Below are positions 1 through 13,816 of a DNA stretch of 13,816 nucleotides, piece by piece. The translations under genes and the position numbers were made by a program. The notes beneath the pieces are model-generated. The model saw only the letters and a list, made by a program, of their open reading frames with translations. It made no database searches and had not been told where the DNA came from. The stretch lies in contig WTGR01000142.1 of assembly GCA_011523485.1 (NCBI GenBank), positions 1 through 13,816 on the forward strand. Direction: 5' to 3'. This DNA comes from Acidobacteriota bacterium (lineage in GTDB: Bacteria; Acidobacteriota; Vicinamibacteria; Vicinamibacterales; UBA8438). Positions within the stretch are counted from its first letter, which is position 1; each line of letters opens with the position of its first letter.

Positions 1-1
1 C

Positions 2-1915
2 TACCTCGGCGCGGCCCGGCGCATCAGCCGGTTGGCCGTCGGCAGCGCGGCGATCAGTCCGGCCATTTCGACCTACCTCGTGCCGACGGTGCTGACCCAG
101 AACGACCATCTCGACGGTCTGCCGCTCGGCACGCGGGGCGGCATCGCCGTGCGGCACCGGTTTCCGCTCGACGGCGAGTACGTCGTTCGCGTGCGCCTGC
201 TGCGAACGGTCATAGACACGATTCGGGGATTGGGAGAGCCGCACCAGTTGGAGGTCAGCCTGGACGGCGAGCGTGTGCGGCTCTTCACCATCGGCGGCGC
301 GCAGCCGCGGGCGGACGCGTTCGAGCCGGATGACGACGCCGACGAGGAGGCGCGGGAGGCGGCGCGGCGAGCCGCGCGGGAAGCGGCGTTGGCGTACTCG
401 ATGAACGCGGATGCGGCACTGGAGGTGCGGCTGCCGGTCCAGGCCGGAACCCGCACGCTCGCCGTGGCGTTCCTCAGGAAGACCTCGGCGCAAGTGGCCA
501 CGATTCGCCAGCCGCTGCTGCGCAGCAACATCGATCCGGCCGACACGTCGGGCCCGCCCCACGTACGGAGCGTGGCCATCGGCGGACCGTACGGCGCGAC
601 AGGACCGGGGGACACGCCGAGCCGGCGCCGGCTGTTCGACTGCCGTCCGGATCATGCGGAAGAGGAAACGGCGTGCGCGCGGCGAATCATGGCGCAGGTC
701 GCCCGTCGCGCCTATCGCCGGCCGGTGACCGCGGCGGACCTTCGGGTATTGCTCGGGTTCTACGAGGCAGGGCGCCGGGAAGGCACTTTCGAGGACGGCA
801 TCGGGCGGGCGCTGCAGCGCGTTCTCGTGAGCCCGGAGTTCCTGTTCCGCATCGAGCGCGACGCCCCGACAGACACTGCCGGCACGGCGAGGCCGCTGCG
901 CGACCTGGAACTGGCGTCGCGCCTGTCGTTCTTCCTGTGGAGCAGCATTCCCGACGACGAGTTGCTCGAGGTGGCCGAGGCCGGGCGGCTCGGCGATCCC
1001 GGCGTGCTTCACGGGCAGGTGCGCCGGATGCTGCGGGACCCGCGCTCGCGGGCGCTCGTCGACAACTTCGGGGGGCAATGGCTGTACCTGCGCAACCTGG
1101 CCGGCACGGCGCCGGATCCCATCCAGTTTCCGGATTTCGACGAGAACCTGCGGCAGGCGATGCAGCGGGAGACGGAGCTGTTCTTCGACCGGGTGATCCG
1201 CGAGGACCGCAGCGCGCTGGAGTTCCTGACGTCGCGCACGACGTTCCTCAACGAACGGCTGGCCCGGCACTACGGCATTCCGCGGGTCTACGGCAGCCAC
1301 TTCCGCCCCGTGACCCTGACGGATCGCAATCGTGCGGGCGTGCTGGGACATGCCAGCCTGTTGACGGCGACTTCCTACGCGAACCGGACGTCACCCGTGA
1401 CCCGCGGCAAGTGGATCCTGGAGAACATCATCGGCGCGCCGCCGCCGCCTCCACCACCGGACATCCCGGAACTCGAAGAGGAAACCCCCGACGGTCGGGT
1501 GCGGTCGATGCGCGAGCGGATGGAGCAGCACCGCAAGAACCCGAGCTGCGCGGTTTGCCACGCGCAGATGGACCCGCTGGGGCTGGCGCTGGAGAACTTC
1601 GACGCGGTCGGCCGCTGGCGGGAACGTAGCGAGTCGGACGCGCCGGTGGATGCCTCCGGGGTGCTGCCGGACGGCACCCGGTTCGACGGGCCGCAGGGGC
1701 TGCGGACCGTGCTGGAGAGCCGCGCGGAGGAGTTCGTAACGACGCTGGCCGAGAAGCTGCTGACCTACGCCGTCGGCCGGGGGGTGGAGCTGACGGATGC
1801 GCCCGTGGTGCGGCGGATCGTCCGCGACGCCGCCCGCGACGACTACCGCTTCTCGTCGCTGATTCGCGGCGTCGTCGACAGCAAGCCGTTTCGGATGCGG
1901 AGAGTACAGCCATGA
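2..1915 (+). CDS. DUF1592-type haem-binding (PSD/PSCyt) protein, 5' truncated by window edge
   Basis: The reading frame is open to the left edge; its first residues (YLGAARRISRLAVG) align with an internal stretch of the complete paralogue at 8503-10974, so the N-terminal cytochrome domain lies outside the window. The 637 visible residues follow the PSD/PSCyt order: a beta-rich segment, DUF1595 (AYRRPVTAADLRVLL), DUF1592 (LASRLSFFLWSSIPDDELL), DUF1588/PSCyt3 with a CAVCH haem motif near visible residue 516 followed by MDPLGLALENFDAVG, and a C-terminal DUF1585. The seven-proline run before DUF1588 is a linker. A charged Asp/Glu/Arg/Ala-rich insert (about nt 305-395) is missing from the paralogue. 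The stop overlaps the next start as ATGA, so the two genes are translationally coupled. The protein is probably periplasmic. Its biochemical role is not established; the family assignment is firm. Confidence 0.93.
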   Translation, partial: YLGAARRISRLAVGSAAISPAISTYLVPTVLTQNDHLDGLPLGTRGGIAVRHRFPLDGEYVVRVRLLRTVIDTIRGLGEPHQLEVSLDGERVRLFTIGGAQPRADAFEPDDDADEEAREAARRAAREAALAYSMNADAALEVRLPVQAGTRTLAVAFLRKTSAQVATIRQPLLRSNIDPADTSGPPHVRSVAIGGPYGATGPGDTPSRRRLFDCRPDHAEEETACARRIMAQVARRAYRRPVTAADLRVLLGFYEAGRREGTFEDGIGRALQRVLVSPEFLFRIERDAPTDTAGTARPLRDLELASRLSFFLWSSIPDDELLEVAEAGRLGDPGVLHGQVRRMLRDPRSRALVDNFGGQWLYLRNLAGTAPDPIQFPDFDENLRQAMQRETELFFDRVIREDRSALEFLTSRTTFLNERLARHYGIPRVYGSHFRPVTLTDRNRAGVLGHASLLTATSYANRTSPVTRGKWILENIIGAPPPPPPPDIPELEEETPDGRVRSMRERMEQHRKNPSCAVCHAQMDPLGLALENFDAVGRWRERSESDAPVDASGVLPDGTRFDGPQGLRTVLESRAEEFVTTLAEKLLTYAVGRGVELTDAPVVRRIVRDAARDDYRFSSLIRGVVDSKPFRMRRVQP

Positions 1916-3252
1916 TCATCACCAAGAAGGCCTTGCCTCGCCGGACCGTGCTCCGGGGAATGGGAGCCGCCGTCGCCCTCCCGTTGCTGGACGCCATGGT
2001 GCCGGCGTTGACGGCCATGACCCGCACGCCCGCGCATCCCGCACGCCGGCTCGCCTTCATCTACATTCCGAACGGCGCCTATCACGCGGCCTGGACGCCG
2101 AAGGGCACGGGGCGTGACTTCGAGTGGTCGCCCTCGCTGCAGGCGCTCGCGCCGTTCCGCGAGCAGGTGGTCGTGGTGACCGACCTGGCCCATCGGCAGC
2201 TCGAGTCGCTCGGCGACGGCGGGGGAGACCACTCCCGGGCGAGCGCCGGGTGGCTGAGCGGCGTGCATGCCAAGCGGACCGAGGGAGCCGACGTCGAGGT
2301 GGGCACCACCGCCGATCAGATCGCGGCGCGGGAGATCGGCGCCGCGACGCCCCTCGCATCGCTCGAGCTCGCCCTCGATGCCGCCGACATCGTCGGCCAC
2401 TGCGACGCCGGCTACAGTTGCGCCTACATGAACACCATCTCGTGGCGCACGCCGACCACTCCCAACCCGATGGAGCGCAATCCGCGCGCGGTGTTCGAGC
2501 GGCTGTTCGGCGACGGCGACAGCACGGCCGACCGGTTGCGCGAGATGGAGATGGATCGCAGCCTGCTCGACTCGGTCACCGCGGAGATCGGGCGTCTGCA
2601 CACGGATCTGGGCGCGCAGGACAAGCGGCGGGTGGACGAATACCTGGAGGCGATTCGCGAGACCGAGCGGCGCATTCGCAAGACCGAGCAGTACAACCGC
2701 ACGACCGAGTTTCCGGTCCCGGACCGGCCCATCGGCGTGCCGGAGGACTTCGAAACCCACGCCGGGCTGATGATCGACCTGCAGGTACTGGCCTACCAGG
2801 CCGATCTCACGCGCGTGACCACCTTCGCCTTCGGCCGCGAGGCCAGCTACCGGACCTTCCCGGCCATCGGCATCAACGATCCGCACCACGCCCTGTCGCA
2901 CCACCAGAACGACGAGGGGAAGCTCGCCAGGCTGGGCAAGGTCAACGCGCACCACGTCGCGACCTTCGCGTCGTACCTGGAGAAGCTGCAGGCGACGCCG
3001 GACGGCGACGGCACGCTGCTCGACCACACGCTGCTCCTCTACGGGAGCGGCATGAGCGACGGCAACCTGCACAACCACTCGCCGCTGCCCATCGTGCTGG
3101 CGGGCGGTGCCGCGGGCAGGTTCAAGGGCGGCCGGCACCTGCGCGCCAGGCCCGAAACGCCGATGACGAACCTGTTGCTGAGCATGCTCGACATGGCCGG
3201 GGTGCGGCCCGAGCGCCTCGGCGACAGCACGGGTCGGCTGACCGGCCTCTGA
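1912..3252 (+). CDS. DUF1552 family protein, Tat-exported
   Basis: This 446-residue protein starts inside the stop codon of the DUF1592-type gene. Its N-terminus has a twin-arginine signal (PRRTVLRGMG, residues 9-18) followed by a hydrophobic AAVALPLLDAM stretch, so it is expected to be folded and exported by Tat. DUF1552 motifs include a His-rich DPHHALSHH near residue 323 and YGSGMSDGN near residues 376-385 followed by HNHSPLP. These resemble the conserved segments of the related DUF1501 family, which is thought to have a sulfatase/alkaline-phosphatase-like fold (established for relatives, inferred here). A Glu/Arg-rich helical stretch at about 210-265 could be a coiled coil. DUF1552 genes usually follow DUF1592/PSCyt genes, as here and at 11047. 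The last nine codons and stop recur 73 bp downstream in another frame. Substrate unknown. Confidence 0.93.
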   Translation: MIITKKALPRRTVLRGMGAAVALPLLDAMVPALTAMTRTPAHPARRLAFIYIPNGAYHAAWTPKGTGRDFEWSPSLQALAPFREQVVVVTDLAHRQLESLGDGGGDHSRASAGWLSGVHAKRTEGADVEVGTTADQIAAREIGAATPLASLELALDAADIVGHCDAGYSCAYMNTISWRTPTTPNPMERNPRAVFERLFGDGDSTADRLREMEMDRSLLDSVTAEIGRLHTDLGAQDKRRVDEYLEAIRETERRIRKTEQYNRTTEFPVPDRPIGVPEDFETHAGLMIDLQVLAYQADLTRVTTFAFGREASYRTFPAIGINDPHHALSHHQNDEGKLARLGKVNAHHVATFASYLEKLQATPDGDGTLLDHTLLLYGSGMSDGNLHNHSPLPIVLAGGAAGRFKGGRHLRARPETPMTNLLLSMLDMAGVRPERLGDSTGRLTGL

Positions 3253-3256
3253 TCGG
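3222..3256 (+). repeat. 35-bp direct repeat, copy A (3' end of DUF1552 gene)
   Basis: This exact 35-bp unit covers the last nine sense codons of the DUF1552 gene (DSTGRLTGL), its stop codon and four bases beyond. An identical unit lies at 3295-3329. Confidence 0.95.
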
Positions 3257-3294
3257 CTCTACCTGCCGGATGGCAACCTGTACGTCGTGCCGCA

Positions 3295-3329
3295 CGACAG
3301 CACGGGTCGGCTGACCGGCCTCTGATCGG
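3295..3329 (+). repeat. 35-bp direct repeat, copy B (non-coding duplicate of the gene tail)
   Basis: Identical to 3222-3256 and offset by 73 bp, so it lies in a different frame from the live gene. In its own frame it reads DSTGRLTGL then stop, preceded by LYLPDGNLYVVPH, which does not resemble the DUF1552 sequence just before copy A. It looks like the end of a lost or recombined coding sequence, or a short duplication joined to foreign DNA. Confidence 0.9.
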
Positions 3330-3587
3330 GAATCGATCCTGGCCGGGCTGGGCTCCTGGATTCCGGCCCGGCGGGCGGTGTCCACCGACCGGCGGAGATG
3401 CTCCGAAGCGGCGAGTGAATCCCGCGGAGCGCCTTCGCCACTCCTCGCCTCCATCGCGTGTCGGTCTCGCCGAGGCTGGGCAGCTCGCCTTCCGGCCTGT
3501 CCTCTTCGGGGGACGATTCGTGCCTCTCGTGGAACGAGTCGCACGCGTGCCGCCGAAGAAAGCGCTTGTTCCCGGCCTCGATGTTCC

Positions 3588-3603
3588 TGGCACGTGTCTT
3601 GCT
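3588..3603 (+). promoter_or_regulatory. Sigma-54 (RpoN) type -24/-12 promoter for the BON-domain gene
   Basis: The sequence reads TGGCACG, four bases, then TTGCT, preceded by C. This matches the RpoN consensus YTGGCACG-N4-TTGCW at every specified base, and the GG (3589-3590) and GC (3601-3602) doublets start 12 bp apart as required. Transcription would start near 3614, leaving a leader of about 59 nt before the ATG at 3673. Such promoters need an AAA+ enhancer-binding activator; the palindrome at 3541-3550 is a possible but rather close binding site. The motif is seen directly; its activity is inferred. Confidence 0.7.
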
Positions 3604-3618
3604 GTCACGTGAGAGTAG

Positions 3619-3655
3619 CGCGTGCGGCCATCGAGTCCGGTGAGACACGCACGCG
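3619..3655 (+). promoter_or_regulatory. Leader hairpin abutting the BON gene ribosome-binding site
   Basis: A perfect 8-bp GC-rich inverted repeat (CGCGTGCG at 3619-3626, CGCACGCG at 3648-3655) has a 21-nt loop. Its 3' arm ends on the first G of the Shine-Dalgarno run GGAGAAAGGA (3655-3664). On a transcript starting near 3614 it would form almost at the 5' end. It could stabilise the mRNA or modulate ribosome access; no ligand-binding core is recognisable. Confidence 0.4.
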
Positions 3656-3672
3656 GAGAAAGGACACCCACG

Positions 3673-4242
3673 ATGCACACTCTTTCGAATGCTCGCCGAA
3701 TCGCTCTGCCACTGATGGCGCTCGCCATCGCGGTCCTCTCGGTGTCGCCGGCGGCCGCCGACGGGCCGAAGTACGATCTGTTCCAGCGAGTGCAGGAACA
3801 GGTGCTCCGGTACTCGTTCTTCACGGTGTTCGACAACATCGACGTGGAGATCGCCGGCGAGGGACACGTCGTGCTCAGCGGCCACGTCACCGCGGGGCAC
3901 AAGGCGAAGAGCATCGAGGAGCGCGTCGAAGCGCTCGACGGGGTGACCAGGGTGACCAACGAGATCGCCGTGCTTCCGGTGTCGGGATTCGATGACCGGT
4001 TGCGATACGTCGTCGCCCGCGCGATCTACGGGAATCCCAACTTCTGGAGCTACGCCACGAGCGCGAATCCGTCGATTCACATCGTGGTGAATCGGGGGCA
4101 CGTGACGCTCACGGGCGTCGTCGACAACGAGATGGACCGGCAACTGGCCAGGGCGCTCGCCGGGCAGTTCAACGCCTTCTCCGTCACCAACGAGCTGCGG
4201 CTGCCGGAGGAGGTGACGGCAGAGCTCGAGGCGCTCGGATAG
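3673..4242 (+). CDS. Secreted double-BON-domain protein
   Basis: This 189-residue protein starts at the ATG placed 8 bp after GGAGAAAGGA; an in-frame GTG at 3622 would add 17 residues but lacks a comparable site and would sit within the leader hairpin. Residues 1-29 form a Sec signal peptide (RRIALPLMALAIAVLSVSPAAA, cleavage before DG). Two BON domains follow, at about 36-101 (VEIAGEGHVVLSGHV, then GVTRVTNEIAV) and 108-178 (IHIVVNRGHVTLTGVV, then FSVTNELRL). BON domains, as in OsmY, are periplasmic modules thought to contact lipids or membranes and are often linked to envelope stress. The gene stands alone between a sigma-54-type promoter and a hairpin, so it is probably an independently controlled envelope-stress protein. 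The domain call is firm; the role is inferred. Confidence 0.92.
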   Translation: MHTLSNARRIALPLMALAIAVLSVSPAAADGPKYDLFQRVQEQVLRYSFFTVFDNIDVEIAGEGHVVLSGHVTAGHKAKSIEERVEALDGVTRVTNEIAVLPVSGFDDRLRYVVARAIYGNPNFWSYATSANPSIHIVVNRGHVTLTGVVDNEMDRQLARALAGQFNAFSVTNELRLPEEVTAELEALG

Positions 4243-4271
4243 ACCGAGGGGTTCATACGAAGACGTGCTCG

Positions 4272-4299
4272 CGGCGGTCGCCACGCGAGGCGACCGCCG
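4272..4299 (+). terminator. Terminator-like hairpin after the BON gene
   Basis: A perfect 11-bp GC-rich stem (4272-4282 with 4289-4299) encloses a 6-nt loop, starting 30 bp after the stop codon. No T-tract follows, so it may act as a Rho-assisted terminator or an mRNA 3' stabiliser rather than a classical intrinsic terminator. Confidence 0.55.
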
Positions 4300-4410
4300 A
4301 TCACTCCGTGCGAGCCGACCACGCAGGGGCTGCACCCACTCGAAAGCGTGCGGGCAGCGGGGCGCGGGTTCGGCATCCGGCTCGGCCCAGGAGTCAGGAC
4401 ACCCGCTACA

Positions 4411-5706
4411 ATGGAACGGATGGCACTTCTTCCTCACGGCGGTGGTTGCTCTGTCGTGGCGTGGCATCTCCCACTCCTCGCGCTGGCCCTTGCCGCGTGC
4501 GGCGGCCGGGACGCTCCTCCCGTGGCTTCCGAGGCTTCATCCTGCGTCGGGTGTCATCGCGAGGAGACTCCCGGTGTCGTCACGGACTGGGAGCTGAGCC
4601 GGCACAGCGCGGCGGGAGTCGATTGCAGCCTGTGTCACGGCGAAGGGCACAGCACGGCGAACGATGTCGCCCTCGTCGAGATGGCGACCGTGGAAGTGTG
4701 CGCGGACTGCCATCCCATCCAGGCGGAGCAGTTCACGGGCGGCAAGCACGCCCTGGCGTGGGCCAGCATGAACGCGATGCCGACGACGCACTGGCTGCCG
4801 ATGGCGCTCACCGAGGGCATGAAGGGCTGCGGCGGGTGTCACCGTGTCGGGATCAAGACCGAGGACGACATGCGGCAGTTGCGGGCCGACGGCGCCACGT
4901 TCGGTCTGGCGTCGTGCGACGCCTGCCATACGCGCCACCTGTTCTCGGTCGCCGAGGCGCGGGAGCCGCAGGCGTGCCGGACGTGCCACATGGGCATCGA
5001 CCACCCGCAGTGGGAGATGTACTCGTCGTCCAAGCACGGCGTACGACACCTCCTGAAGCAGAACGGCACCCTGCCGGACGAAGCCGCGGCGCCCACCTGC
5101 CAGACGTGCCACATGCCGCGGGGAGACCACGAGGTCCGGACCGCTTGGGGGTTCCTGGGCGTGCGGCTGCCCCTGCCGGAGGATCCGGCATGGGCCGCCG
5201 ACCAGACGACCATCCTGCAGGCCCTCGGAGTCCTCGACCCCGAGGGCAACCCGACGGCGCGCCTGGAGGTCGTGCGGCAGGCCGACGTCGCCCGGCTGAC
5301 GCAGGAGGACTGGCAGCGCGAACGCGACCGCATGATCGCGGTCTGTGAAGAGTGCCACTCCGGCAACTTCGTGCGTGCGGAACTCGAGAAGGGCGACGGC
5401 ATGATCAAGGAGGCGGACCGCCTGCTGGCCGAAGCGATCCGCATCGTCGCCGCTCTCTACACCGACGGCGTGTTGCGCAGGCCGGACCACTACGAGTACG
5501 ACTACCCCGACCTGCTGGCGTTCCACGACGCGCCGACGGTGATCGAACAGCGCCTGTTCAGGATGCATCTGGAACACCGGATGCGGACCTTCCAGGGCGC
5601 CTTTCACAACAACCCCGACTACTCCCTGTGGTACGGCTGGAGCGAGATGGTGCAGGATCTGACCGAAATCAGGACGTTGGCGCAGGAACTGCGCGAGCGT
5701 CGCTAG
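4411..5706 (+). CDS. Octahaem cytochrome c lipoprotein, hydroxylamine oxidoreductase (HAO) family
   Basis: From the ATG at 4411 this is a 431-residue protein with a lipoprotein signal (LALAAC, lipid-bearing Cys30), so it is probably membrane-anchored in the periplasm. Eight CxxCH motifs lie at residues 45, 72, 97, 140, 169, 189, 230 and 312, the haem count of the HAO/octahaem family. Family signatures are clear: CHTRHLFSVAEA, then CHMGIDHPQWEMYSSSKHG, then APTCQTCHMPRGDH. A helical, haem-free C-terminus (about 320-431) contains HNNPDYSLWYGW. HAO oxidises hydroxylamine using a Tyr-cross-linked P460 haem; relatives lacking that cross-link reduce nitrite or hydroxylamine. Which applies cannot be settled by eye, because I could not place the catalytic tyrosine. 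It is shorter than ammonia-oxidiser HAO. The NapC-like partner begins 22 bp downstream. The start is uncertain: an upstream GTG (4348) and an ATG at 4420 are also possible. Confidence 0.87.
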   Translation: MERMALLPHGGGCSVVAWHLPLLALALAACGGRDAPPVASEASSCVGCHREETPGVVTDWELSRHSAAGVDCSLCHGEGHSTANDVALVEMATVEVCADCHPIQAEQFTGGKHALAWASMNAMPTTHWLPMALTEGMKGCGGCHRVGIKTEDDMRQLRADGATFGLASCDACHTRHLFSVAEAREPQACRTCHMGIDHPQWEMYSSSKHGVRHLLKQNGTLPDEAAAPTCQTCHMPRGDHEVRTAWGFLGVRLPLPEDPAWAADQTTILQALGVLDPEGNPTARLEVVRQADVARLTQEDWQRERDRMIAVCEECHSGNFVRAELEKGDGMIKEADRLLAEAIRIVAALYTDGVLRRPDHYEYDYPDLLAFHDAPTVIEQRLFRMHLEHRMRTFQGAFHNNPDYSLWYGWSEMVQDLTEIRTLAQELRERR

Positions 5707-5728
5707 CCGGAGGCAGGGAACGTCGCCG

Positions 5729-6346
5729 ATGACCGCTGCCGACGTCAGCCTGGGGGTCCTGGCCGTTGCGGCCCTTGTGCTCATCGGGGTCGTGACCCGT
5801 CGACCCGAGGCGGCGGCCACGCTCGGGGGCAGGATCGTCGCGTTCGCGGCCCTGTTCGCGCTGCCCGGGCTCGTGCTGCTGGGCGGCACGGTCCGCCACT
5901 ACGAGCAGGCCCGGACCACGACGTTCTGTCTTTCCTGCCACATGATGGAACCGTGGCGGGAGAGCCTGCACATCGACGATCCGCGTTTCCTGCCGGCGGC
6001 GCACTATCAGAACCGGCGGGTTCCGGTGGACCGCGCCTGCTACACCTGCCATACGAACTACACGATGTTCGGCGGTGTCGACGACAAGGTCCGGGGTGTC
6101 CGGCATGTGTGGCACACCGTGTGGGGAACCGTCTCCGACCCCGTCGAGCTGTACGAGCCGTTCGAGAACCGTGCCTGTCTCGCCTGTCATCAGGGCGGCC
6201 GTTCCTACGAGGAGCAGGCCGCCCACGCACGCTTTCTGGCCGACCTGCGCGAGGGGACGAGGTCCTGCGTCATGTGCCACAACCTGGTGCACGAAGTGGC
6301 GCAACTCGACCGGTTCCCGCGCTGGGCCCCGGGGAAACCGCAATGA
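5729..6346 (+). CDS. Membrane-anchored tetrahaem NapC/NrfH-like cytochrome c (quinone/quinol redox partner)
   Basis: This 205-residue protein has a good ribosome site (GGAGGCAGGGAA, 8 bp before the ATG). Two hydrophobic segments, about residues 7-23 and 36-53, are joined by an Arg-bearing loop; the positive-inside rule places the haem domain in the periplasm. Four CxxCH motifs lie at 67, 104, 150 and 180, and the first is CLSCHMM, like the CxxCHxM haem-1 site of NrfH. NapC/NrfH proteins oxidise menaquinol or ubiquinol and feed periplasmic reductases; cM552 of ammonia oxidisers is a relative thought to work in the reverse direction. The gene follows the octahaem gene and overlaps the next by ATGA, so it is probably that enzyme's quinone-side partner. 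Typical NapC/NrfH proteins have a single N-terminal anchor, so the second helix is unusual. Confidence 0.85.
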   Translation: MTAADVSLGVLAVAALVLIGVVTRRPEAAATLGGRIVAFAALFALPGLVLLGGTVRHYEQARTTTFCLSCHMMEPWRESLHIDDPRFLPAAHYQNRRVPVDRACYTCHTNYTMFGGVDDKVRGVRHVWHTVWGTVSDPVELYEPFENRACLACHQGGRSYEEQAAHARFLADLREGTRSCVMCHNLVHEVAQLDRFPRWAPGKPQ

Positions 6347-6555
6347 GCCGGTTACGCGTGCCCGGGCTGCGGGACGGACTCGCCGGTCGGCTGCAGGTGT
6401 CCGGCGTGTTGATCGTGTCGGGGCTCGGCGTGGCGCTGGCCACGTTCTTCTGGAACCATCCGATCTCTTTCTTCCTGTTCCTCGTTCCGGGCGCGGCGCT
6501 CATGAGCGCCGGCATGTTGCTGTACCTGTGGTCGGTGGCGACCGGTAGCAAGTGA
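6343..6555 (+). CDS. Small two-helix membrane protein, third gene of the octahaem operon
   Basis: This 70-residue frame starts at an ATG that overlaps the stop of the tetrahaem gene (ATGA), a common sign of translational coupling. Residues 1-16 are Arg-rich (MSRLRVPGLRDGLAGR) and should lie in the cytoplasm. Two predicted transmembrane helices follow, about 18-37 (VSGVLIVSGLGVALATFFW) and 41-64, split by a short NHP turn, with a short polar tail (ATGSK). No cysteine is present, so it binds no c-type haem. I do not recognise the family. Its coupling to the tetrahaem gene suggests an assembly factor or small subunit of the membrane module; that is inference. Confidence 0.72.
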   Translation: MSRLRVPGLRDGLAGRLQVSGVLIVSGLGVALATFFWNHPISFFLFLVPGAALMSAGMLLYLWSVATGSK

Positions 6556-6819
6556 TCCGGCGCGAGCCCGCGCCCGCGCTTCCAGCGTAGCCGATCCCTT
6601 CTGACGGCCGAGCCTGGATCGACACCGAAGTGCCATCACCCGCGACGGGCGCCAGCGCCGCGCCGAGGAGTGCGCCAGCCGGGACAGGAGCGGCAACAGG
6701 ATGTCGGTATGCTATTCGAGGAGCCCCCCTCCGTGGAGCAAGCTGGGGCAGCCGGCTGGCGCGGCTCCGGTAGCGGGGTTGCAGGTTGACTACTCGTCGT
6801 CGCGGAGCGCCTCGCCTCG
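6556..6819. other. 264-bp gap between convergent genes
   Basis: This lies between the end of the octahaem operon and the 3' end of the minus-strand ankyrin gene. Just after the operon stop is a small GC hairpin (6559-6564 with 6569-6574, 4-nt loop) without a T-tract, a weak terminator candidate. The palindrome AGCCGGCT near 6751 is unremarkable at this GC content. I see no credible gene, although minus-strand frames run open through it. Confidence 0.5.
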
Positions 6820-8337
6820 CTACTCGGTCCCGCCGAGGGAGCGGAGCAGGTTCGCCGTGGGCGTCTGTCCCCGACTGGCGGCCCAGGCGGCGTAGATCTC
6901 TCGATAGCGCCCGAGGGCGGCCCCGCCGATGGCCGATCCGTCGGGGGCCTCGGGTGGCGCGAGCGCAACCGCCAGCGGCGTCTGGCCCATCCGATTCCGC
7001 GCGTTCACGAGCGCGCCGCGCTCGGCAAGGAGCCGAATGACGCTGTCGAACTTGGTGCCCGCGGCTACGTGCAGGGCGGTGTCGCCGGACTGGCTGACGG
7101 CGTTCGCGTCCACGCCGAGATCGAGCGCTGACCGCACCGTTTCCAGGATCTGCCATTCCGCGAGCCTGAGTCGCTGAAGCCCGGTGTTTCTCCCGCCTGC
7201 CGCAACCATGACCGCCGTGCGGCCGTCCTGCAGCGGCAGCGACGTGTCGGCGCCGCCGGCCTCCAGGATCTGCATGATCCCGATGTCGGATCGCCGGGCG
7301 GCCAGCACGAACGGCGTCGCGCCGACCAGGAACTTGTCGAAGGCGAACGCGCGCCGGTCGTGCTTGAGGAACGAGCCCCGCGTGAGCCGTACGTCCGGAT
7401 CGGCGCCGTGGGCCAGGAGAATCTCCACCAGCGCGCGATCGCCTCGGAGCGCGGCCCAGTGCAGGGCGGCCTGCCCCGCGCCGGCGGCGTCGGGGTCCGC
7501 TCCCCGCTCCAATAGCACCGCGGCGACCTCGTGGAAACCGTGCTGGGCCGCGACGACCAGCGGCGTGGTCCCGATTGCAGCCGTGTCGTCGACTGGCGCG
7601 CCGGCGGCCAGCAGGAGCTCGGCCGAGGCCGCGGCCCCGTGCCGCGCGGCGAACAGCAGTGGCGTGAAGCCGCCCTGCTCGATCCAGATGGTCCCCTCGG
7701 TCTTGCCGAGACTCTTCTGGCAGCACAACAGGACATGCCGGCGTGACGACTTCGTCCGGGCGTGCGGATCCGCTCCGACTTCCAGCAGGACCCGCACGAC
7801 CTGCGGATGCCGCCGCGCAACGGCCCACATGAGCGCGGTCTGTCCCTGTGCGCCCTCCGTCGCGTTCATGTCGGCGCCGTGAGCGAGCAACGCCCGCACC
7901 GCGGCGACGTTGCCCTGGCGGGCGGCGATCATGAGGGGGGTGCCGCCGGTGTCCGGCGCGATGTCCGGTTCGGCGCGCGCCTCGAGCAGTTTCGAGACCA
8001 TTGCCGCGCTGCCGCCCGTCGTCGCGACCCAGAGCGGGGTGACGCCCAGATCGTTGGCCGCGTCCACGGCCGCGCCGGCCCGGATCAACAAGTCCGCCGC
8101 TTGGAGGTCGTTCAGGTGGGCGGCCCAGTGGAGGGCGGTCGCGCCGTCGCCCCGCCGCGCATCCACGTCGGCGCCGCTGTCGAGGAGCGCGCGCACCGCG
8201 GACGCATCGCCGTTCCTGACCGCTTGAATCAGCTCGGCATCGGCGGCGCTCGCGCCGTTGGCGGCGGTTGCCGCGAGTGTCGCGATGATCAGCAGGCGGA
8301 GCGACAGTCTGCAGAGCCGTCTCGTCGAGATGCGCAT
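6820..8337 (-). CDS. Exported ankyrin-repeat protein
   Basis: This 505-residue protein starts 8 bp after AGGGAGGG on the minus strand. Residues 1-31 are a Sec signal peptide (LRLLIIATLAATAANGASA, cleavage near 31), so the repeats act in the periplasm or beyond. About eleven ankyrin repeats fill residues 33-460, recognisable by TPLxxAA and LLxxGADP/V motifs (GATALHWAA, GTTPLVVAA, QAALHWAAL, GDTALHVAA). Two non-ankyrin inserts interrupt them: about 197-225, which includes a CC pair (HVLLCCQKSLGKTEG), and about 325-350 (RGSFLKHDRRAFAFDKFLV). The C-terminus (IYAAWAASRG) is non-repetitive. Ankyrin repeats bind proteins and have no catalytic role of their own. The gene is divergent from the cassette 2 haem protein, and such neighbours are common in Acidobacteriota, so it may scaffold or inhibit that system (inference). 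Confidence 0.93.
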   Translation of the reverse strand: MRISTRRLCRLSLRLLIIATLAATAANGASAADAELIQAVRNGDASAVRALLDSGADVDARRGDGATALHWAAHLNDLQAADLLIRAGAAVDAANDLGVTPLWVATTGGSAAMVSKLLEARAEPDIAPDTGGTPLMIAARQGNVAAVRALLAHGADMNATEGAQGQTALMWAVARRHPQVVRVLLEVGADPHARTKSSRRHVLLCCQKSLGKTEGTIWIEQGGFTPLLFAARHGAAASAELLLAAGAPVDDTAAIGTTPLVVAAQHGFHEVAAVLLERGADPDAAGAGQAALHWAALRGDRALVEILLAHGADPDVRLTRGSFLKHDRRAFAFDKFLVGATPFVLAARRSDIGIMQILEAGGADTSLPLQDGRTAVMVAAGGRNTGLQRLRLAEWQILETVRSALDLGVDANAVSQSGDTALHVAAGTKFDSVIRLLAERGALVNARNRMGQTPLAVALAPPEAPDGSAIGGAALGRYREIYAAWAASRGQTPTANLLRSLGGTE

Positions 8338-8502
8338 GTTCGTGCCCTCCCTGTACCGCGACTCGACGCGTACGCGACCGGAAAACCCGCTGGCTTGCCG
8401 AGTCTACCACGCGGGCCGAGCGCTGCCCGTACTCGAAAACACTGAGCTTTCCGGGGCCGCGATGCTATCATGCGACCTGATCGGTTGCAGGGAGGCAAGG
8501 AC
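8338..8502. promoter_or_regulatory. Divergent promoter region between the ankyrin and cassette 2 genes
   Basis: These 165 bp separate two outward-facing genes and must hold both promoters. For the plus-strand gene, TATCAT at 8466-8471 matches five of six bases of the -10 consensus and would give a leader of about 25 nt; no good -35 box lies 17 bp upstream. For the minus-strand gene only the ribosome site (8345-8352) is clear. No operator-like repeat stands out. Confidence 0.4.
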
Positions 8503-10974
8503 ATGTCGCGCTGGCGCTCCGTCGGCGGGCTCGTGGCGGCGGCGTGGTTCGTTCTTCTGGCGCCGCCGGCAGCCGGCCAGACGGCCGCTTCACGCCCGCA
8601 GGCCTCGCCGGCGGAACCTTCGCCGCTGCGCCCCGTACTGAACCGCTACTGCGTCGGTTGCCACAATGACCGGCTCCTGACGGCGGACCTCTCCCTGGAG
8701 GCGATGGACGCGGTCCACGTCGCCGGGGGCGCGGAGGTGTGGGAGAAGGTCATCCGCAAGCTCCGGAGCGGCGCGATGCCGCCGCCGGGCCGGCCGCGGC
8801 CCGACGCGACGGTCGTCGAGGACGTGCTCGCGTGGCTCGAGACGGAGCTGGACGGCGCCGCCGCGCTCGACCCGGACCCGGGCCGGACCGACAGCGTCCA
8901 CCGGCTCAATCGCACCGAGTATCGGAACGCGATTCGCGACCTGCTGGCGCTCGACGTCGACGTCACGTCGCTGCTGCCGGCCGACAGCGCGGACGAGCAC
9001 GGCTTCGACAACATCGCGAGCATGCTGTCGGTCTCGCCGACGCTCCTGGACCGTTACCTGTCGGCCGCGCGGCGGCTGAGCCGGCTCGCGGTCGGACTGC
9101 CTCCGGCAGCGCCCACCACCGACGAGTACCGGATCCGGCTCGATCAGGACGAGTACCTGGGCGAGGACCTGCCGTTCGGGTCGCGGGGAGGCGCCGCGAT
9201 TCGCCATCGCTTTCCGGTCGATGGCGAGTACGTCATCGACGTCCGCCTGTACCGCCAGTTGTTCGACGTGGTCGTCGGGCTCGGGTCGCCGCACGAGGTC
9301 GAGATTCGGATGGACGGCGAACGGATTCTCTCGTCGGTGGTCGGCGGCGAAGAGACCGGCGGCGCCCCGCCGGCCGGCTTCGTGGGCGACATCTTCGGTA
9401 GTCCGGCGTGGGAGCGGTACGCGCGCAACGCCGACGCCGGCCTCGAAGTGCGGTTCCCGGCGCAGGCCGGCTGGCGTCTGCTGACCGTGTCGTTCCTCGG
9501 GCGCCCGACCGAGGTCGAGGACGGCGTTCCGCACCCGCCGAGATATCCCGAGCGCGACGAGTCGCTCGAGAGCAACCCGTGGGTGCACACCGTCGCCATC
9601 CGCGGCCCGTACGGCGTGTCGGGCCCGGGCGATACCCCGAGCCGTCGCAAGATCTTCGTCTGCCGACCGGCGGAACCGCGCGAGGAGGAGCCCTGCGCGG
9701 AGCGGATTCTCACGGCGCTCGCAGGCCAAGCGTATCGCCGGCCCGCGACCGCGCGCGAGGTGCGGACGCTCCTGCGGTTCTACGGCGAGGGTCGCCGCGA
9801 CGGCACGTTCGATGACGGCGTGCAGTTCGCGCTGGAGCGGCTCCTGGCCGACCCGAAGTTCCTGTTCCGCATCGAGCGGGAGCCGGTCGACCTCGCCCCG
9901 GGTACGGTCTACGACGTCGGCGATCTGGATCTCGCGGCGCGCCTGTCGTTCTTCCTGTGGAGCAGCATTCCCGACGCCGAGCTGCTCGGCGCGGCGGCCC
10001 GCGGGGAACTGAGCGCTCCCGGCGAACTCGAGCGGCAGGTGCGGCGGATGCTGGCCGACGAGCGCTCCCAGGCTCTGGTGGACAACTTCGTCGGCCAGTG
10101 GCTGCTGTTGCGCAATCTGCCGAGCGCGGCGCCGGACCCGAACGCCTTTCCCGCGTTCGACGAGAACCTGCGCGAGGCGTTCGAGCGGGAGACGAGGTTG
10201 TTCGTCGAGAGCATGTTCCGGGAGGACCGGAGCGTGGTCGACCTCCTGCGGGCGAACTACACGTTCCTGAACGAGAGACTGGCGCGGCACTACGGCGTCC
10301 CGAACGTGTACGGCAGCCACTTCCGGCGCGTGACTTTCGGCGACGACGAGCCGCGGGGCGGGTTGCTCGGGCAGGGGAGCTTCCTGACGGTGACGTCGTA
10401 TCCGAATCGAACGTCTCCGGTGCTGCGGGGCCGCTGGGTCCTCGAGAGCCTGCTGGGCACGCCGCCGCCCTCGCCGCCGGCGGACGTGCCGGGTCTGCCG
10501 GACCGCGGCGAAGACGGACGGCCGGCGTCGGTGCGCGAGCGGCTGGAACGGCACCGCGAGAGCCCCGCCTGCTCCACGTGTCACGCTCCCATGGATCCGC
10601 TGGGCTTCGCGCTGGAGAACTTCGACGCGGTGGGCGGCTGGCGCGACGCCGAGGGCGGAACGCCCGTGGACAGCTCTGCCGTGCTGCCGGACGGAACGCG
10701 GTTTCGGGGCCCGGCCGGACTCCGCGCGTTCCTGGTGGCGCAGCGCCGGCAGTTCGTCGAAGCGATGACCGAGAAGCTGCTGGCGTACTCCCTGGGCCGC
10801 CGGCTCGAGTACTACGATCGTCCGACGGTGCGCGGCATCGTGCGGGAAGCCGCGGCGAGCGACCATCGCCTGTCCGATATCATTCTGGGCATCGTCCGGA
10901 GCCCTGCGTTCAAGCTGCGGCGCGCGGCCGGGGATCCCGTGCCGGCGAGGTCGGCAGACGCGGCCAACCCCTGA
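8503..10974 (+). CDS. DUF1592-type haem-binding (PSD/PSCyt) protein, complete paralogue
   Basis: This 823-residue protein starts at the ATG 7 bp after GGGAGG; an upstream in-frame ATG at 8470 falls inside the probable -10 box and is less likely. Residues 1-25 are a signal peptide. A cytochrome-c-like domain follows, with CVGCH at 50-54 and GAMPPPG (candidate Met ligand, M92). Next come DUF1587 from about 133 (HRLNRTEYRNAIRDLL), a beta-rich segment at about 200-395, DUF1595 at about 399-460, DUF1592 at about 474-600 (LAARLSFFLWSSIPD), DUF1588 with a second haem motif CSTCH at 690-694, and DUF1585 to the end (LAYSLGRRLEYYDRPTV). Two haems suggest periplasmic electron transfer, but the family's reaction is unknown. 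It pairs with the DUF1552 gene 72 bp downstream and is a paralogue of the gene at 2-1915. Confidence 0.95.
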   Translation: MSRWRSVGGLVAAAWFVLLAPPAAGQTAASRPQASPAEPSPLRPVLNRYCVGCHNDRLLTADLSLEAMDAVHVAGGAEVWEKVIRKLRSGAMPPPGRPRPDATVVEDVLAWLETELDGAAALDPDPGRTDSVHRLNRTEYRNAIRDLLALDVDVTSLLPADSADEHGFDNIASMLSVSPTLLDRYLSAARRLSRLAVGLPPAAPTTDEYRIRLDQDEYLGEDLPFGSRGGAAIRHRFPVDGEYVIDVRLYRQLFDVVVGLGSPHEVEIRMDGERILSSVVGGEETGGAPPAGFVGDIFGSPAWERYARNADAGLEVRFPAQAGWRLLTVSFLGRPTEVEDGVPHPPRYPERDESLESNPWVHTVAIRGPYGVSGPGDTPSRRKIFVCRPAEPREEEPCAERILTALAGQAYRRPATAREVRTLLRFYGEGRRDGTFDDGVQFALERLLADPKFLFRIEREPVDLAPGTVYDVGDLDLAARLSFFLWSSIPDAELLGAAARGELSAPGELERQVRRMLADERSQALVDNFVGQWLLLRNLPSAAPDPNAFPAFDENLREAFERETRLFVESMFREDRSVVDLLRANYTFLNERLARHYGVPNVYGSHFRRVTFGDDEPRGGLLGQGSFLTVTSYPNRTSPVLRGRWVLESLLGTPPPSPPADVPGLPDRGEDGRPASVRERLERHRESPACSTCHAPMDPLGFALENFDAVGGWRDAEGGTPVDSSAVLPDGTRFRGPAGLRAFLVAQRRQFVEAMTEKLLAYSLGRRLEYYDRPTVRGIVREAAASDHRLSDIILGIVRSPAFKLRRAAGDPVPARSADAANP

Positions 10975-11046
10975 AGGATGCCGGCCGCCATACGGCCCTG
11001 TGCAACCGAGACCGACAACGGTTCAACCGAAGCGGAGAGCCCGACC

Positions 11047-12393
11047 ATGATGATCACGAAGACGGCGTTGCCGCGGCGTACTTTCTTGCGCGGCGCAGGC
11101 GCCGCGGTGGCGCTGCCGCTGCTGGACGCGATGGCGCCCGCGCTCACCGCGTTCGCGAAGACGCCGGCGGCGCCGGTCCGGCGTCTCGGCGTGGTCTACG
11201 TACCCAACGGGATGATCATGCCGGCCTGGACGCCGCCCGCCGAGGGTCCGCTCGAGCTGTCGCCGGTGCTTCAGCCGCTCGCGCCCTTCAAGGACCGCAT
11301 GCTCGTCTTCTCGGGGCTGGACGGCGTGCAGAACCGCGGCGGGACCCATACGACCGCGGCGACGAGATTTCTGACCGGCGTGGTCGGGAAGCGGACCGCC
11401 CAGGGGATCGAGGCGGGCACGTCGATCGATCAGATCGCGGCCCGGCAGTTCGGGCGACACACGCAGTTGGCCTCGCTCGAACTCGCGCTCGACCGCCTCG
11501 ACCTCGTCGGCACGTGCGACAACACCACGTGCGCCTTCATCAACTCGCTCTCGTGGACGAGTCCGACGACGCAGGCGCCGGCCGAGGACAACCCCCGCGT
11601 GGTCTTCGAGCGGCTGTTCGGCGACAGCGGGACGACCGACCCGGCCGAGCGCAAGGTGCGCCTGCGGCGCAGCCGCAGCATTCTCGACTCGCTGCTGGAG
11701 TCGCTCTCGGACCTGGAGCAGGAGCTCGGCTCGGGCGACCGCTCCCGGCTCGACGAGTACCTGACGGCCGTGCGCGACGTGGAGCGCCGCATTCAGAACG
11801 CCGAGGCGCAGAGTGCGATGGACCTGCCGCTGGTGGAGCAGCCCGGCGGCATCCCCGCGGACTACGAAGACTACTGTGCGCTGATGTGCGATCTGCAGGT
11901 GCTGGCCTACCAGTGCGATCTGACGCGGGTCGTGACGTTCATGCTCGGTCGCGAGTACAGCGGGCGGACGTACCCGCAGATCGGCATCGCCGAGGCCCAC
12001 CATCCGCTGTCCCATCACCAGGACGATCCCGAGAAGAAAGCGCTGCTCGCCAAGCTGAACACGTACCACGCCGCGCTGTTCGGTTCCTACCTGGAGAAGC
12101 TGCAGCGGACGCCGGACGGCGATGGATCGCTGCTGGACCACACGCTGCTGCTGTACGGGGCCGGCATGGCGGACGGCAACTCCCACGACTCGCAGAATCT
12201 GCCGCTGATGCTGATCGGATCGCGGGAGCACTTCCGCTTCCGGGGCGGCCGTCACCTGCGTTACGAGCACGGGCCGGCGGCATCGCTGCTGGTCACCGTG
12301 CTGGACAAGCTCGGCGTGCCCGTCGAGCGGATCGCCAACAGCCGCGGCCCGCTCGACCTCGATGCGCCTCCGGGGCCGCTGGCCGGGATCTGA
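11047..12393 (+). CDS. DUF1552 family protein, Tat-exported, cassette 2
   Basis: This 448-residue protein starts at the first of two adjacent ATGs, 7 bp after GGAGAG; a start at 10978 would put 23 unrelated residues before the signal, and the paralogue at 1912 also begins near this point. The Tat motif is PRRTFLRGAG (residues 9-18), closer to the canonical form than its paralogue's. Conserved segments include HHPLSHHQDD near 318 and YGAGMADGN near 370-378. A likely helical, charged stretch lies at about 195-255. It follows the DUF1592-type gene by 72 bp rather than overlapping it, so coupling is looser than in cassette 1. The fold is probably sulfatase/phosphatase-like by relation to DUF1501 (inference); the substrate is unknown. 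Confidence 0.93.
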   Translation: MMITKTALPRRTFLRGAGAAVALPLLDAMAPALTAFAKTPAAPVRRLGVVYVPNGMIMPAWTPPAEGPLELSPVLQPLAPFKDRMLVFSGLDGVQNRGGTHTTAATRFLTGVVGKRTAQGIEAGTSIDQIAARQFGRHTQLASLELALDRLDLVGTCDNTTCAFINSLSWTSPTTQAPAEDNPRVVFERLFGDSGTTDPAERKVRLRRSRSILDSLLESLSDLEQELGSGDRSRLDEYLTAVRDVERRIQNAEAQSAMDLPLVEQPGGIPADYEDYCALMCDLQVLAYQCDLTRVVTFMLGREYSGRTYPQIGIAEAHHPLSHHQDDPEKKALLAKLNTYHAALFGSYLEKLQRTPDGDGSLLDHTLLLYGAGMADGNSHDSQNLPLMLIGSREHFRFRGGRHLRYEHGPAASLLVTVLDKLGVPVERIANSRGPLDLDAPPGPLAGI

Positions 12394-12440
12394 ACGGCCA
12401 GGAAGACGCAGTCCGAGCCGGGGTTCGGCTGAAGCGGTTG

Positions 12441-12470
12441 CTGACGGAGCGCCCGTTGGGTTTCCGTCAG
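12441..12470. terminator. Hairpin between convergent genes
   Basis: A perfect 8-bp stem (CTGACGGA with TCCGTCAG) encloses a 14-nt loop in the 110-bp gap between convergent genes. It could end transcripts from both sides, but no T-tract follows on either strand. A second 5-bp hairpin lies at 12416-12430. Confidence 0.35.
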
Positions 12471-12503
12471 GTCCCGGCGGTTGGACTCGGTCGAGGCCTC
12501 TCG

Positions 12504-13151
12504 CTACCTCGCCTCCACGTTCAGCAGGCGAAACGCCGGGGTGCCGAACGTCTCCCTGAACGTCTCGACCGCGAGCCGGCCGTCCGGATCCAGGTGGAGC
12601 CGGGCCGCCACCACCAGCACGCCGTCGCCTCTGCCGTTGTGGTCGAGCTGGAGCTCGATCATGCCGAAGGGGTATTCGCGGCTACGGGACCGACCCACCG
12701 ACTCGTCGAAACCGAGGTGCCGGACGGTGAACACCCGGACCACGCGCCCGCTCCGGGTCGGTGTGGAGCGGGCCAACGCGATGTCGTAGCCCAGGCTGTC
12801 GATGACGATCCGCCCCTTCCGTGACCTCAGGAATGCGTCCTCCAGCCGTCGCGGACCCCCGCCGGCCAGGATCTCCAGGAACTCGATGAACTCCTCGTCG
12901 CTCGTGTACTCGTCGATCTGGATGCTGAAGAAGTTGGAGCCGGCGTTGCCGAAGGTGCCCGTGTTCGCGATGCGTCCCTCGAAGCGCTCGGGTCCGGGGG
13001 GCTGGCCCTGGGCGAAGACCGCGGCGGCGCAGAAGGTCGCCGCGACGGCGAGCAGGACGCGGGCGACGGAGGAGAAACGCCGCTCACGCGGGATGCATCG
13101 CCGCCCGAATGCGGCGGGGCTGTTGCCTGGGGCCGACTTCCTTCCGCACAT
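12504..13151 (-). CDS. Secreted protein of unknown family
   Basis: This 215-residue protein has a good ribosome site (GGGAGG, 6 bp before the ATG). The signal peptide is unusually long: a 30-residue basic N-region precedes the hydrophobic core (VARVLLAVAATFCAAAVFA, cleavage near AQG, about residue 48). The mature part of about 165 residues looks like mixed alpha/beta structure, with NTGTFGNAGSNFFSIQIDEY, an acidic helix (DEEFIEFLEILAGGG) and beta-strand-like segments (RVVRVFTVRHLGF, FGMIELQLDHNG, GVLVVAARLHL). Apart from Cys residues in the leader, the mature protein appears cysteine-free. I do not recognise the family. It lies 81 bp downstream of the TonB-receptor gene on the same strand, with a strong terminator between them, so it may be periplasmic or outer-membrane associated with that receptor (inference). 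Confidence 0.8.
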   Translation of the reverse strand: MCGRKSAPGNSPAAFGRRCIPRERRFSSVARVLLAVAATFCAAAVFAQGQPPGPERFEGRIANTGTFGNAGSNFFSIQIDEYTSDEEFIEFLEILAGGGPRRLEDAFLRSRKGRIVIDSLGYDIALARSTPTRSGRVVRVFTVRHLGFDESVGRSRSREYPFGMIELQLDHNGRGDGVLVVAARLHLDPDGRLAVETFRETFGTPAFRLLNVEAR

Positions 13152-13170
13152 CGAAACCTCCCGGGGCCGA

Positions 13171-13209
13171 AAGAACGACGGGCCGCGCCCCCGCAGGGGC
13201 GCGGCCCGT
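13171..13209 (-). terminator. Strong intrinsic terminator after the TonB-receptor gene
   Basis: Read on the minus strand, a perfect 14-bp GC-rich stem (13196-13209 with 13178-13191) with a 4-nt loop is followed by the T-rich tail CGTTCTT. It starts about 24 bp after the receptor's stop and ends only about 20 bp before the next start codon. This is the best terminator in the window. Confidence 0.85.
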
Positions 13210-13232
13210 TCCGCCGCAAGGATCTCCAGGAC

Positions 13233-13814
13233 TCAGAACTCGTAGGTCGCGCTGAGCCGTGCGATCCGCGGCGGGATGTTCTCCAGCACGTTGCCGAACG
13301 ATGGGCCCGAGACCTGCGAGATGCGCAGGATGTCGTTGGCGTTGAGCAGGTTGAATACCTCGACCGCCATCTGGAACCGGCCCGGACCCATGTCGAGGAA
13401 CTTCGACAGGCGGACGTTCCAGACGTGCTGGGCAGTGAGCTTCGACGCGCCGTACGGCTCCACGCGGATCGTCTGGGTGCCCTGGTTGCGGAAGTGGAAC
13501 AGCCCGTCGGGGTCGTTCCGCAGGAACCGCGCGGTCCGCTGAATCGGGAAGCCGCTCAGGCCCTGATAGAACACGCCGAGCTGGACGTCGCCCGGGAACA
13601 TGTAGCTGCCGTGCGCCTTCAGGCCCCACTCCCAGGTCTCGTCGAGCCCATGGAGGGCGACTTGCGGGGGCACGAAGTCGGTCAGCGAGGCGTTGGGGAG
13701 CCAGCGGTGGTTCTGCGTGCCGATGAACGACACGAGACCCTGCCACCCGTCCCGCAACCGTCTCTCCAGCGTGAACTCGTAGCTGTGGTAGAAGTCCGGC
13801 TCGGGATAGTTGAT
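13233..13814 (-). CDS. TonB-dependent receptor (Oar-like), C-terminal part; 5' end beyond the window
   Basis: The frame is open to the right edge and gives 193 residues up to the stop. They look like the last strands of an outer-membrane beta-barrel: alternating hydrophobic/aromatic stretches (FYHSYEFTLERRL, WQGLVSFIG, VQLGVFYQGLSGFP), a NLLNAND motif typical of TonB receptors (VEVFNLLNANDI) and a terminal aromatic residue (RLSATYEF), the usual C-terminal signal for BAM insertion. Oar-like receptors with carboxypeptidase-regulatory domains are abundant in Acidobacteriota, often for uptake of glycans, peptides or metal complexes, but the substrate-defining N-terminus is missing. A strong terminator follows. 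Confidence 0.85.
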   Translation of the reverse strand: MNYPEPDFYHSYEFTLERRLRDGWQGLVSFIGTQNHRWLPNASLTDFVPPQVALHGLDETWEWGLKAHGSYMFPGDVQLGVFYQGLSGFPIQRTARFLRNDPDGLFHFRNQGTQTIRVEPYGASKLTAQHVWNVRLSKFLDMGPGRFQMAVEVFNLLNANDILRISQVSGPSFGNVLENIPPRIARLSATYEF

Positions 13815-13816
13815 CC

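Follow-up and report, generated by a model that had tools for sequence, protein, structure and literature searches.

A three-gene module pairing a predicted HAO-family octahaem lipoprotein with a NapC-like cytochrome: a possible quinol:N-oxide reductase

In which direction, and on what substrate, does an HAO-family octahaem protein work when its gene is followed directly by that of a NapC-like membrane cytochrome? The question is raised by contig WTGR01000142.1 of an Acidobacteriota bacterium (GTDB lineage Bacteria; Acidobacteriota; Vicinamibacteria; Vicinamibacterales; UBA8438; assembly GCA_011523485.1), of which positions 1 to 13,816 of the forward strand were analysed; this whole stretch of 13,816 nucleotides is called the window below. 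An original prediction, made from the sequence of the window, had likened the gene pair to HaoA/HaoC of Campylobacterota and HAO/cM552 of ammonia oxidisers and had called its direction unknown. We find that the pair belongs to a conserved unit of three genes, which may act as a periplasmic quinol:N-oxide reductase; for this reading, N-oxide substrate and whole chain included, we estimate a probability of about 0.48. The relevant features are as follows.

4420-5706, plus strand: coding sequence of the octahaem HAO-family lipoprotein (HAO Pfam match, eight CxxCH)
4489-4500, plus strand: lipobox L-A-A-C (residues 27-30, Cys30 being the last of them), which closes the signal stretch (from the sequence)
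4543-5358, plus strand: the eight haem-binding CxxCH motifs, which begin at 4543, 4624, 4699, 4828, 4915, 4975, 5098 and 5344
4828-4842, plus strand: CGGCH, the fourth CxxCH, which aligns to the site of the catalytic haem in HAO
4999-5004, plus strand: Asp197-His198, aligned to Asp267-His268 of NeHAO
5170-5310, plus strand: conserved stretch lying between haem 7 and haem 8 (from alignments)
5629-5634, plus strand: Trp407-Tyr408, Trp407 lying eight residues after His399
5729-6346, plus strand: NapC/NrfH-like tetrahaem membrane cytochrome (PF03264, four CxxCH)
6343-6555, plus strand: 70-residue protein with two hydrophobic segments, judged by eye (reading frame, kept in module loci)

The gene unit and its place in the HAO family

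The octahaem protein matched the HAO model PF13447 with 87.7 bits (cut-off, 21.9), and its eight CxxCH motifs were kept in 120 of the 120 listed homologues, which here and below are the best 120 of at least 7259 relatives and mostly close to the window's protein. Its start was placed at 4420, since relatives P0005, P0006 and P0007 begin at the corresponding ATG; the in-frame ATG at 4411 is an alternative. The protein is a predicted lipoprotein, as first proposed, with a lipobox (LAAC-GG) read directly after a hydrophobic signal stretch. All three genes lie in tight order on the plus strand with nothing between the first two, which bears out the earlier remark that no cytochrome c554 gene separates them. 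The 70-residue gene, which shares its first 4 bp with the end of the NapC-like gene, fell within the range given in the original prediction (4411-6555) but went unnamed there, and its product had no match in Pfam or NCBIfam.

The expected four-haem membrane partner was recovered as well: the second gene product matched PF03264 with 53.9 bits (cut-off, 24.1), carries four CxxCH and two hydrophobic N-terminal segments (by eye), and by sequence is a tetrahaem membrane cytochrome of the NapC/NrfH family, though its scores stay far under those that NCBIfam requires for NapC, TorC and NrfH. The motif CxxCHxM at haem 1, which we take to be a mark of NrfH, occurs in the window's protein (CLSCHMM) and in eight loci of its clade (L001-L007 and L031), but not in the 16 others whose sequence was read.

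To place the octahaem protein we used two small trees of 34 and 37 rows, from which HDH 6HIF was left out. The window's protein and 14 close relatives formed one group (support 100/98 and 100/99, respectively), and this group joined NeHAO, Kuenenia HOX, Brocadia HAO and 6H5L with 100/99 in both trees, apart from the Met/Trp type, in which a Trp is preceded eight residues earlier by Met, and from the Ignicoccus type. The split persisted (approximate likelihood-ratio support, SH-aLRT, 99 each) without NeHAO, without 6H5L, or without rows L081, L118 and L119; as the branches are long, any branching order inside the HAO side is tentative. As controls, the Ruegeria HAO, annotated beside haoB, grouped with NeHAO, and those of Desulfosarcina and Desulfobaculum fell with the Met/Trp type. 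The trees held no Campylobacterota sequence, so that the epsilon-HAO type was judged by its motif: a Met eight residues before the Trp, also read in 118 of the 120 listed relatives of the second octahaem protein of a Bacteroidota locus (L060), the other two being unreadable by pattern. Identity with epsilon-HAO was dropped because the residue at -8 (His399, not Met) and the tree placement both disagree with it. Of the parallels first drawn, the one with the HAO side stood and, by motif and tree, the one with the Campylobacterota type of octahaem protein did not.

The predicted structure shows the HAO fold, with the Kuenenia reducing HAO-like protein (6H5L) as top match by a slight lead, and the closest solved structures, all but that of the Ignicoccus protein, are named for nitrogen compounds or as HAO-like. 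The structure search excluded a first model, built from a 31-row alignment whose other 30 rows are 67-92% identical to the window's protein (predicted local distance difference test score, pLDDT, 60.6). The hydrazine dehydrogenase model NF052343 gave 89.7 bits, far under its cut-off of 900. By sequence, trees and model, the octahaem protein belongs to the HAO family, on its HAO/anammox side, and falls inside rather than outside the HAO clade.

Second octahaem genes occur beside window-type ones elsewhere. On the Bacteroidota contig of L060 a Met/Trp-type octahaem gene (4562-5905) stands directly before the window-type gene, and two zixibacterial contigs (L036, 2561-4066; L047, 876-2336) encode a second octahaem protein near the window-type one, which groups with the archaeal Ignicoccus cytochrome in the tree (E 2.6e-126 for L036).

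Haem 4, the cross-link position and the direction of catalysis

His144 of the fourth CxxCH aligned to His233 of NeHAO, a site we take to be that of the catalytic P460 haem, and the position of Asp267-His268 of NeHAO, presumably the distal pocket pair, read Asp-His in 119 of the 120 listed homologues and Asp-Leu in one. The spacers set the family apart: haems 4 and 5 are separated by 24 residues, a special trait found in 118 of the 120 listed homologues (two unreadable by pattern), and the long conserved stretch between haems 7 and 8 is special as well; the spacer that holds it has 77 residues in the window's protein compared with 44-45 in NeHAO and Ruegeria HAO and, by chain numbering, ~40 in Kuenenia HOX and 65 in 6H5L.

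Counted from the conserved His399, the residue at +8 is Trp407, at the place of a Tyr in NeHAO, Ruegeria HAO, Kuenenia HOX and Brocadia HAO and of a Trp in 6H5L; His, Trp and Tyr stand at 399, 407 and 408 in all 120 listed homologues. According to PMC8940962, Campylobacterota HAO carries a Trp where the key Tyr would be and a Met at the eighth residue ahead of it, and this spacing gives the register of Trp407, which would put Trp407 at the published cross-link position; the Met/Trp type, with Met rather than His at -8, aligned to the window's protein free of gaps. A missing Tyr is read as a sign of the reductive form in PMC12758564, PMC5317091 and PMC3701875. The Tyr-haem cross-link has therefore likely been lost from the octahaem protein. 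We favour reduction because a Trp sits at the published cross-link position, and a protein working in reduction rather than oxidation seems fairly probable, no more than that because Tyr408 keeps the forward direction possible; what had been called unknown now leans to one side.

In the favoured reading quinol would be oxidised by the NapC-like cytochrome in the membrane, which the 70-residue protein may hold. Electrons would then cross the cytochrome's four haems and reach the lipid-anchored octahaem protein, where an open site on haem 4 would reduce nitrite (or nitric oxide or hydroxylamine), most likely towards ammonium. Several observations, gathered in this and the next three paragraphs, weigh against it. 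One concerns the anchor. In E. coli, a Gly after the lipid-carrying Cys directs a lipoprotein to the outer membrane; by that rule the Gly after Cys30 would send the octahaem protein away from the NapC-like protein with which it should make contact.

The others begin with Tyr408. HMMER, MAFFT and hhalign all paired it with the cross-link Tyr of Kuenenia HOX, and the same programs paired Tyr467 of NeHAO with Leu406 through a one-residue gap; hhalign, without a gap, set Tyr408 opposite Trp of 6H5L. Since the programs disagree with the spacing rule, the cross-link place could be 406, 407 or 408, and Tyr408 could serve. This residue is conserved in all 120 listed homologues, yet the reductive references have no Tyr there: 6H5L has Trp, and almost every protein of the Met/Trp type has His. 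Filing as an oxidative HAO was accordingly set aside on the strength of Trp407 at His+8 and kept as a rival on that of Tyr408: the octahaem protein, cross-linked by Tyr408, would oxidise hydroxylamine from ammonia-oxidising neighbours and deliver the electrons to quinone by way of the NapC-like protein, as in HAO/cM552 but without c554. We consider this rather unlikely. The tree placement on the HAO/anammox side (100/99), the Asp-His pair, the HAO-type His at -8 and the pairing of Tyr408 speak for it; against it stand Trp407, by spacing and published equivalence, the pairing of the NeHAO Tyr with Leu406, and the following genes, which are the NapC-like and 70-residue ones rather than haoB or c554 (no haoB-specific model was used). 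AMO had no match in the seven module-carrying genomes that were searched for nitrogen genes, where the controls were silent too.

A second point is His127, just before haem 4, which was read in 118 of the 120 listed homologues (two unreadable by pattern), is invariant in alignment A1 and has no counterpart in the HAO references. It may be the sixth ligand of haem 4 or a pocket residue; the structure models contain no haem, and their region 126-143, which includes it, has pLDDT <50. Were it a ligand, the protein might be no enzyme at all but an electron-transfer or storage cytochrome with eight bis-His haems, which might supply an outer-membrane conduit. Those relatives of the NapC-like cytochrome that lack an octahaem partner (41-49% identical; five regions seen of seven matches) lie near a 10-haem cytochrome in two of the five regions, one of these two also with a match to an MtrB/PioB-like barrel; of the other three, one has only single-haem genes and two list no haem neighbour. 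A recruitment of the partner from an outer-membrane conduit module is possible on these regions, if thinly supported. Set against an electron-transfer or storage role, which we hold to be a long shot, are the HAO-pocket Asp-His pair, with its near-complete conservation, and the fact that no conduit gene was recognised in the window.

The third concerns nitrogen metabolism. No known nitrogen gene was recognised in the window. In the seven genomes narG matched over its cut-off in none (weak partial matches in all seven), so the cell would depend for nitrite on a different enzyme or on an external supply, nap, nirS, nor, nosZ and sirohaem reductases lying outside the search. Ammonia-oxidising archaea in sponges are a possible outside source of nitrite. 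Likewise nirK matched over its cut-off in none of the seven (weak partial matches in three). Partial NrfA matches exceeded the Pfam cut-off of 24.1 in five of the seven, the best scoring 41.7 bits and covering under half of the model; the frames that contain them are ~500-830 residues long. They were not counted as NrfA, though an NrfA relative may be among them. Hcp was found in none of the seven, with matches in control genomes, so that a Nautilia-type route, which hands hydroxylamine to Hcp (PMC3701875), looks unavailable; the epsilon-HAO pathway as proposed also uses Hcp. Finally, Speth et al. (PMC9213671) describe HAO-family members in organisms outside the nitrogen cycle and propose a sulfur substrate for another branch. 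A reductase of a sulfur compound (sulfite, polythionate) or other non-nitrogen acceptor would suit a family of 65 phyla, many unlinked to nitrogen, and a window in which no N-oxide gene was recognised. Yet the authors themselves call that proposal speculative and made it for a different branch, and the closest solved structures, save the Ignicoccus protein, point by name to nitrogen compounds or HAO, and we judge such a substrate quite unlikely.

Comparison with known systems keeps the quinol:N-oxide reductase reading apart from each of them. The Kuenenia stuttgartiensis Kustc0457/Kustc0458 complex (6H5L), which we take to be HAOr, is 31% identical to the window's protein in the structural alignment; it differs in having Trp at 408, a complex with Kustc0457 and different spacers, and is presumably not a lipoprotein with a NapC partner. 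Ammonia-oxidiser HAO/c554/cM552 shares the fold, haem order, Asp-His pair, His at -8 and a NapC-family quinone partner, whereas the window has Trp at His+8 (Tyr one on) and a lipobox, and has neither c554 between the genes nor an adjacent haoB. The epsilon-HAO, or reverse-HURM, system of Campylobacterota (HaoA with a CycB of NapC/NrfH/cM552 type) likewise joins an octahaem protein to a proposed NapC-type quinol cytochrome and has Trp at the Tyr position; unlike the window it has Met eight residues before that Trp, a motif on the other side of the tree, and "lipoprotein" is not a word used for it in the available part of PMC3701875. The octahaem cytochrome of Ignicoccus hospitalis (4QO5) belongs to a distant branch with Phe near the Trp position.

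HAO/NapC gene pairs are known already, for instance on the Desulfosarcina ovata and Desulfobaculum bizertense plasmids, where NapC/NirT and octahaem genes are likewise adjacent. There, however, the octahaem protein is of the Met/Trp type (27-29% identical), the NapC gene comes first, and a ferredoxin-family or unrelated gene follows instead of the 70-residue membrane protein. On the Desulfosarcina plasmid (L161, 3260-9140) the pair is followed by a ferredoxin-family gene, norR on the opposite strand and the large subunit of a nitric-oxide reductase, neighbours which hint that such pairs act on nitric oxide or nitrite.

Distribution and origin of the module

Members of the HAO-like family are very numerous and come from many phyla: our protein search returned at least 7259 relatives among 7999 scored candidates, and PMC9213671 reports HAO-family proteins in 65 phyla. 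The module is far more restricted. A genome scan found at least 568 encoding stretches, the best 80 of which were kept as loci L001-L080. A lipobox at the corresponding place was present in the window and in 26 of these 80 (L001-L025 and L031); the other 54 have different signal stretches, with lipobox motif hits in L048, L050 (ambiguous) and L053. The NapC-like gene follows the octahaem gene in 25 of the 26 module loci (truncated in L017 and L018, whose contigs stop within it), the contig of L025 ending 12 bases past the octahaem gene, and the 70-residue gene is present in 23 of the 26, the contig ending first in the other three. Gene order, rather than being scattered, is the same in 22 of the 23 complete module loci, L004 being rearranged. 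None of the 54 non-module loci has a downstream same-strand frame with at least three CxxCH within 2.5 kb, as far as the contig allowed, though multihaem genes of other kinds lie close by in several of them, for the most part upstream.

In a tree of 82 rows, which omits L034 and L080 for their broken octahaem frames and L079 for want of a full open reading frame, the 27 module carriers (the window and the 26 loci) formed one clade with SH-aLRT 100, requiring one change. The lipobox and NapC-like partner therefore appear to have been gained once, in a single event and not in many independent ones. By record titles, the module loci come from Acidobacteriota (including Vicinamibacteria and Terriglobia), Latescibacterota, Gemmatimonadota and one Aminicenantes; the acidobacterial kinship of the locus was thus upheld, its restriction to that phylum was not. 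The closest cross-phylum pair by title, L022 and L024, has octahaem proteins 95% identical. Distances of the three module proteins correlated over 24 rows (r 0.88, 0.73 and 0.70), and none of 2000 permutations reached as high a value for any of the three, which fits transfer of the module as a unit; shared descent gives such correlations too, and mislabelled bins could explain some of the cross-phylum pairs. As judged from the sequences, the module has one origin and then spread across phyla as titled.

Across the order of the genome of L001, an HAO-like protein (E≤1e-20) was found in 22 of 149 genomes. In eight of these it is 86-91% identical and in two 62-67%; one genome has it in fragments of 80-96% and another as a single fragment of 55%, while the remaining ten have HAO-like proteins of other types. 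Phylum-wide, the octahaem family was found in 31 of 247 genomes (E≤1e-60) and the NapC-like relative in 10 of 247 (E≤1e-15), both genes standing side by side in three genomes and far apart in one.

Compared with the known pairs, the lipid anchor, the third gene and the single origin followed by spread across titled phyla are new, as far as the sequences tell; within the search terms used, titles and abstract starts of the open-licence literature described no lipid-anchored or acidobacterial HAO/NapC module. HAO-family proteins outside the nitrifier/anammox group and Campylobacterota (clades I and II outside the latter) are described as of unknown function in PMC9213671. In the present clade a dedicated quinol partner and a predicted lipid anchor have become fixed, which makes substrate, direction and electron path testable as one unit. 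A true N-oxide reductase would be an extra nitrite or hydroxylamine sink in uncultured bacteria without matches to the searched marker genes, and surveys by gene name may label such a protein "hydroxylamine dehydrogenase", as some sources do for relatives.

Sponge association and neighbouring genes

Ten bin names among the module loci carry the prefixes COS, RHO, APA, CO or SB, the last of which we take to denote a sponge source. The first four are initials matching sponges in Robbins et al. (PMC8163846). The bin names alone suggest that ten module loci derive from sponges, and the window's bacterium is possibly a marine sponge symbiont. A mobile lipid-anchored module for hydroxylamine/N-oxide respiration, with which sponge symbionts of several phyla use the nitrite or hydroxylamine of ammonia-oxidising archaea, seems very improbable to us; in its boldest form it would run forward, with a Tyr408 cross-link one residue past the usual spacing and electrons passing from HAO to quinone without c554.

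Just upstream of the module lies a gene for a BON-domain protein (3673-4242, plus strand), which was dropped as a module part: BON-like matches occurred in two of the 80 loci, not adjoining the octahaem gene. Convergent to the module is a gene for a 505-residue ankyrin-repeat protein (6820-8337, minus strand); eukaryotic-like repeats are frequent in sponge-associated Acidobacteriota and Latescibacterota according to PMC8163846. Two copies of a gene pair encoding first a DUF1592-type multidomain protein and then a DUF1552 (HXXSHH) protein flank the module at 32-3252 and 8470-12393.
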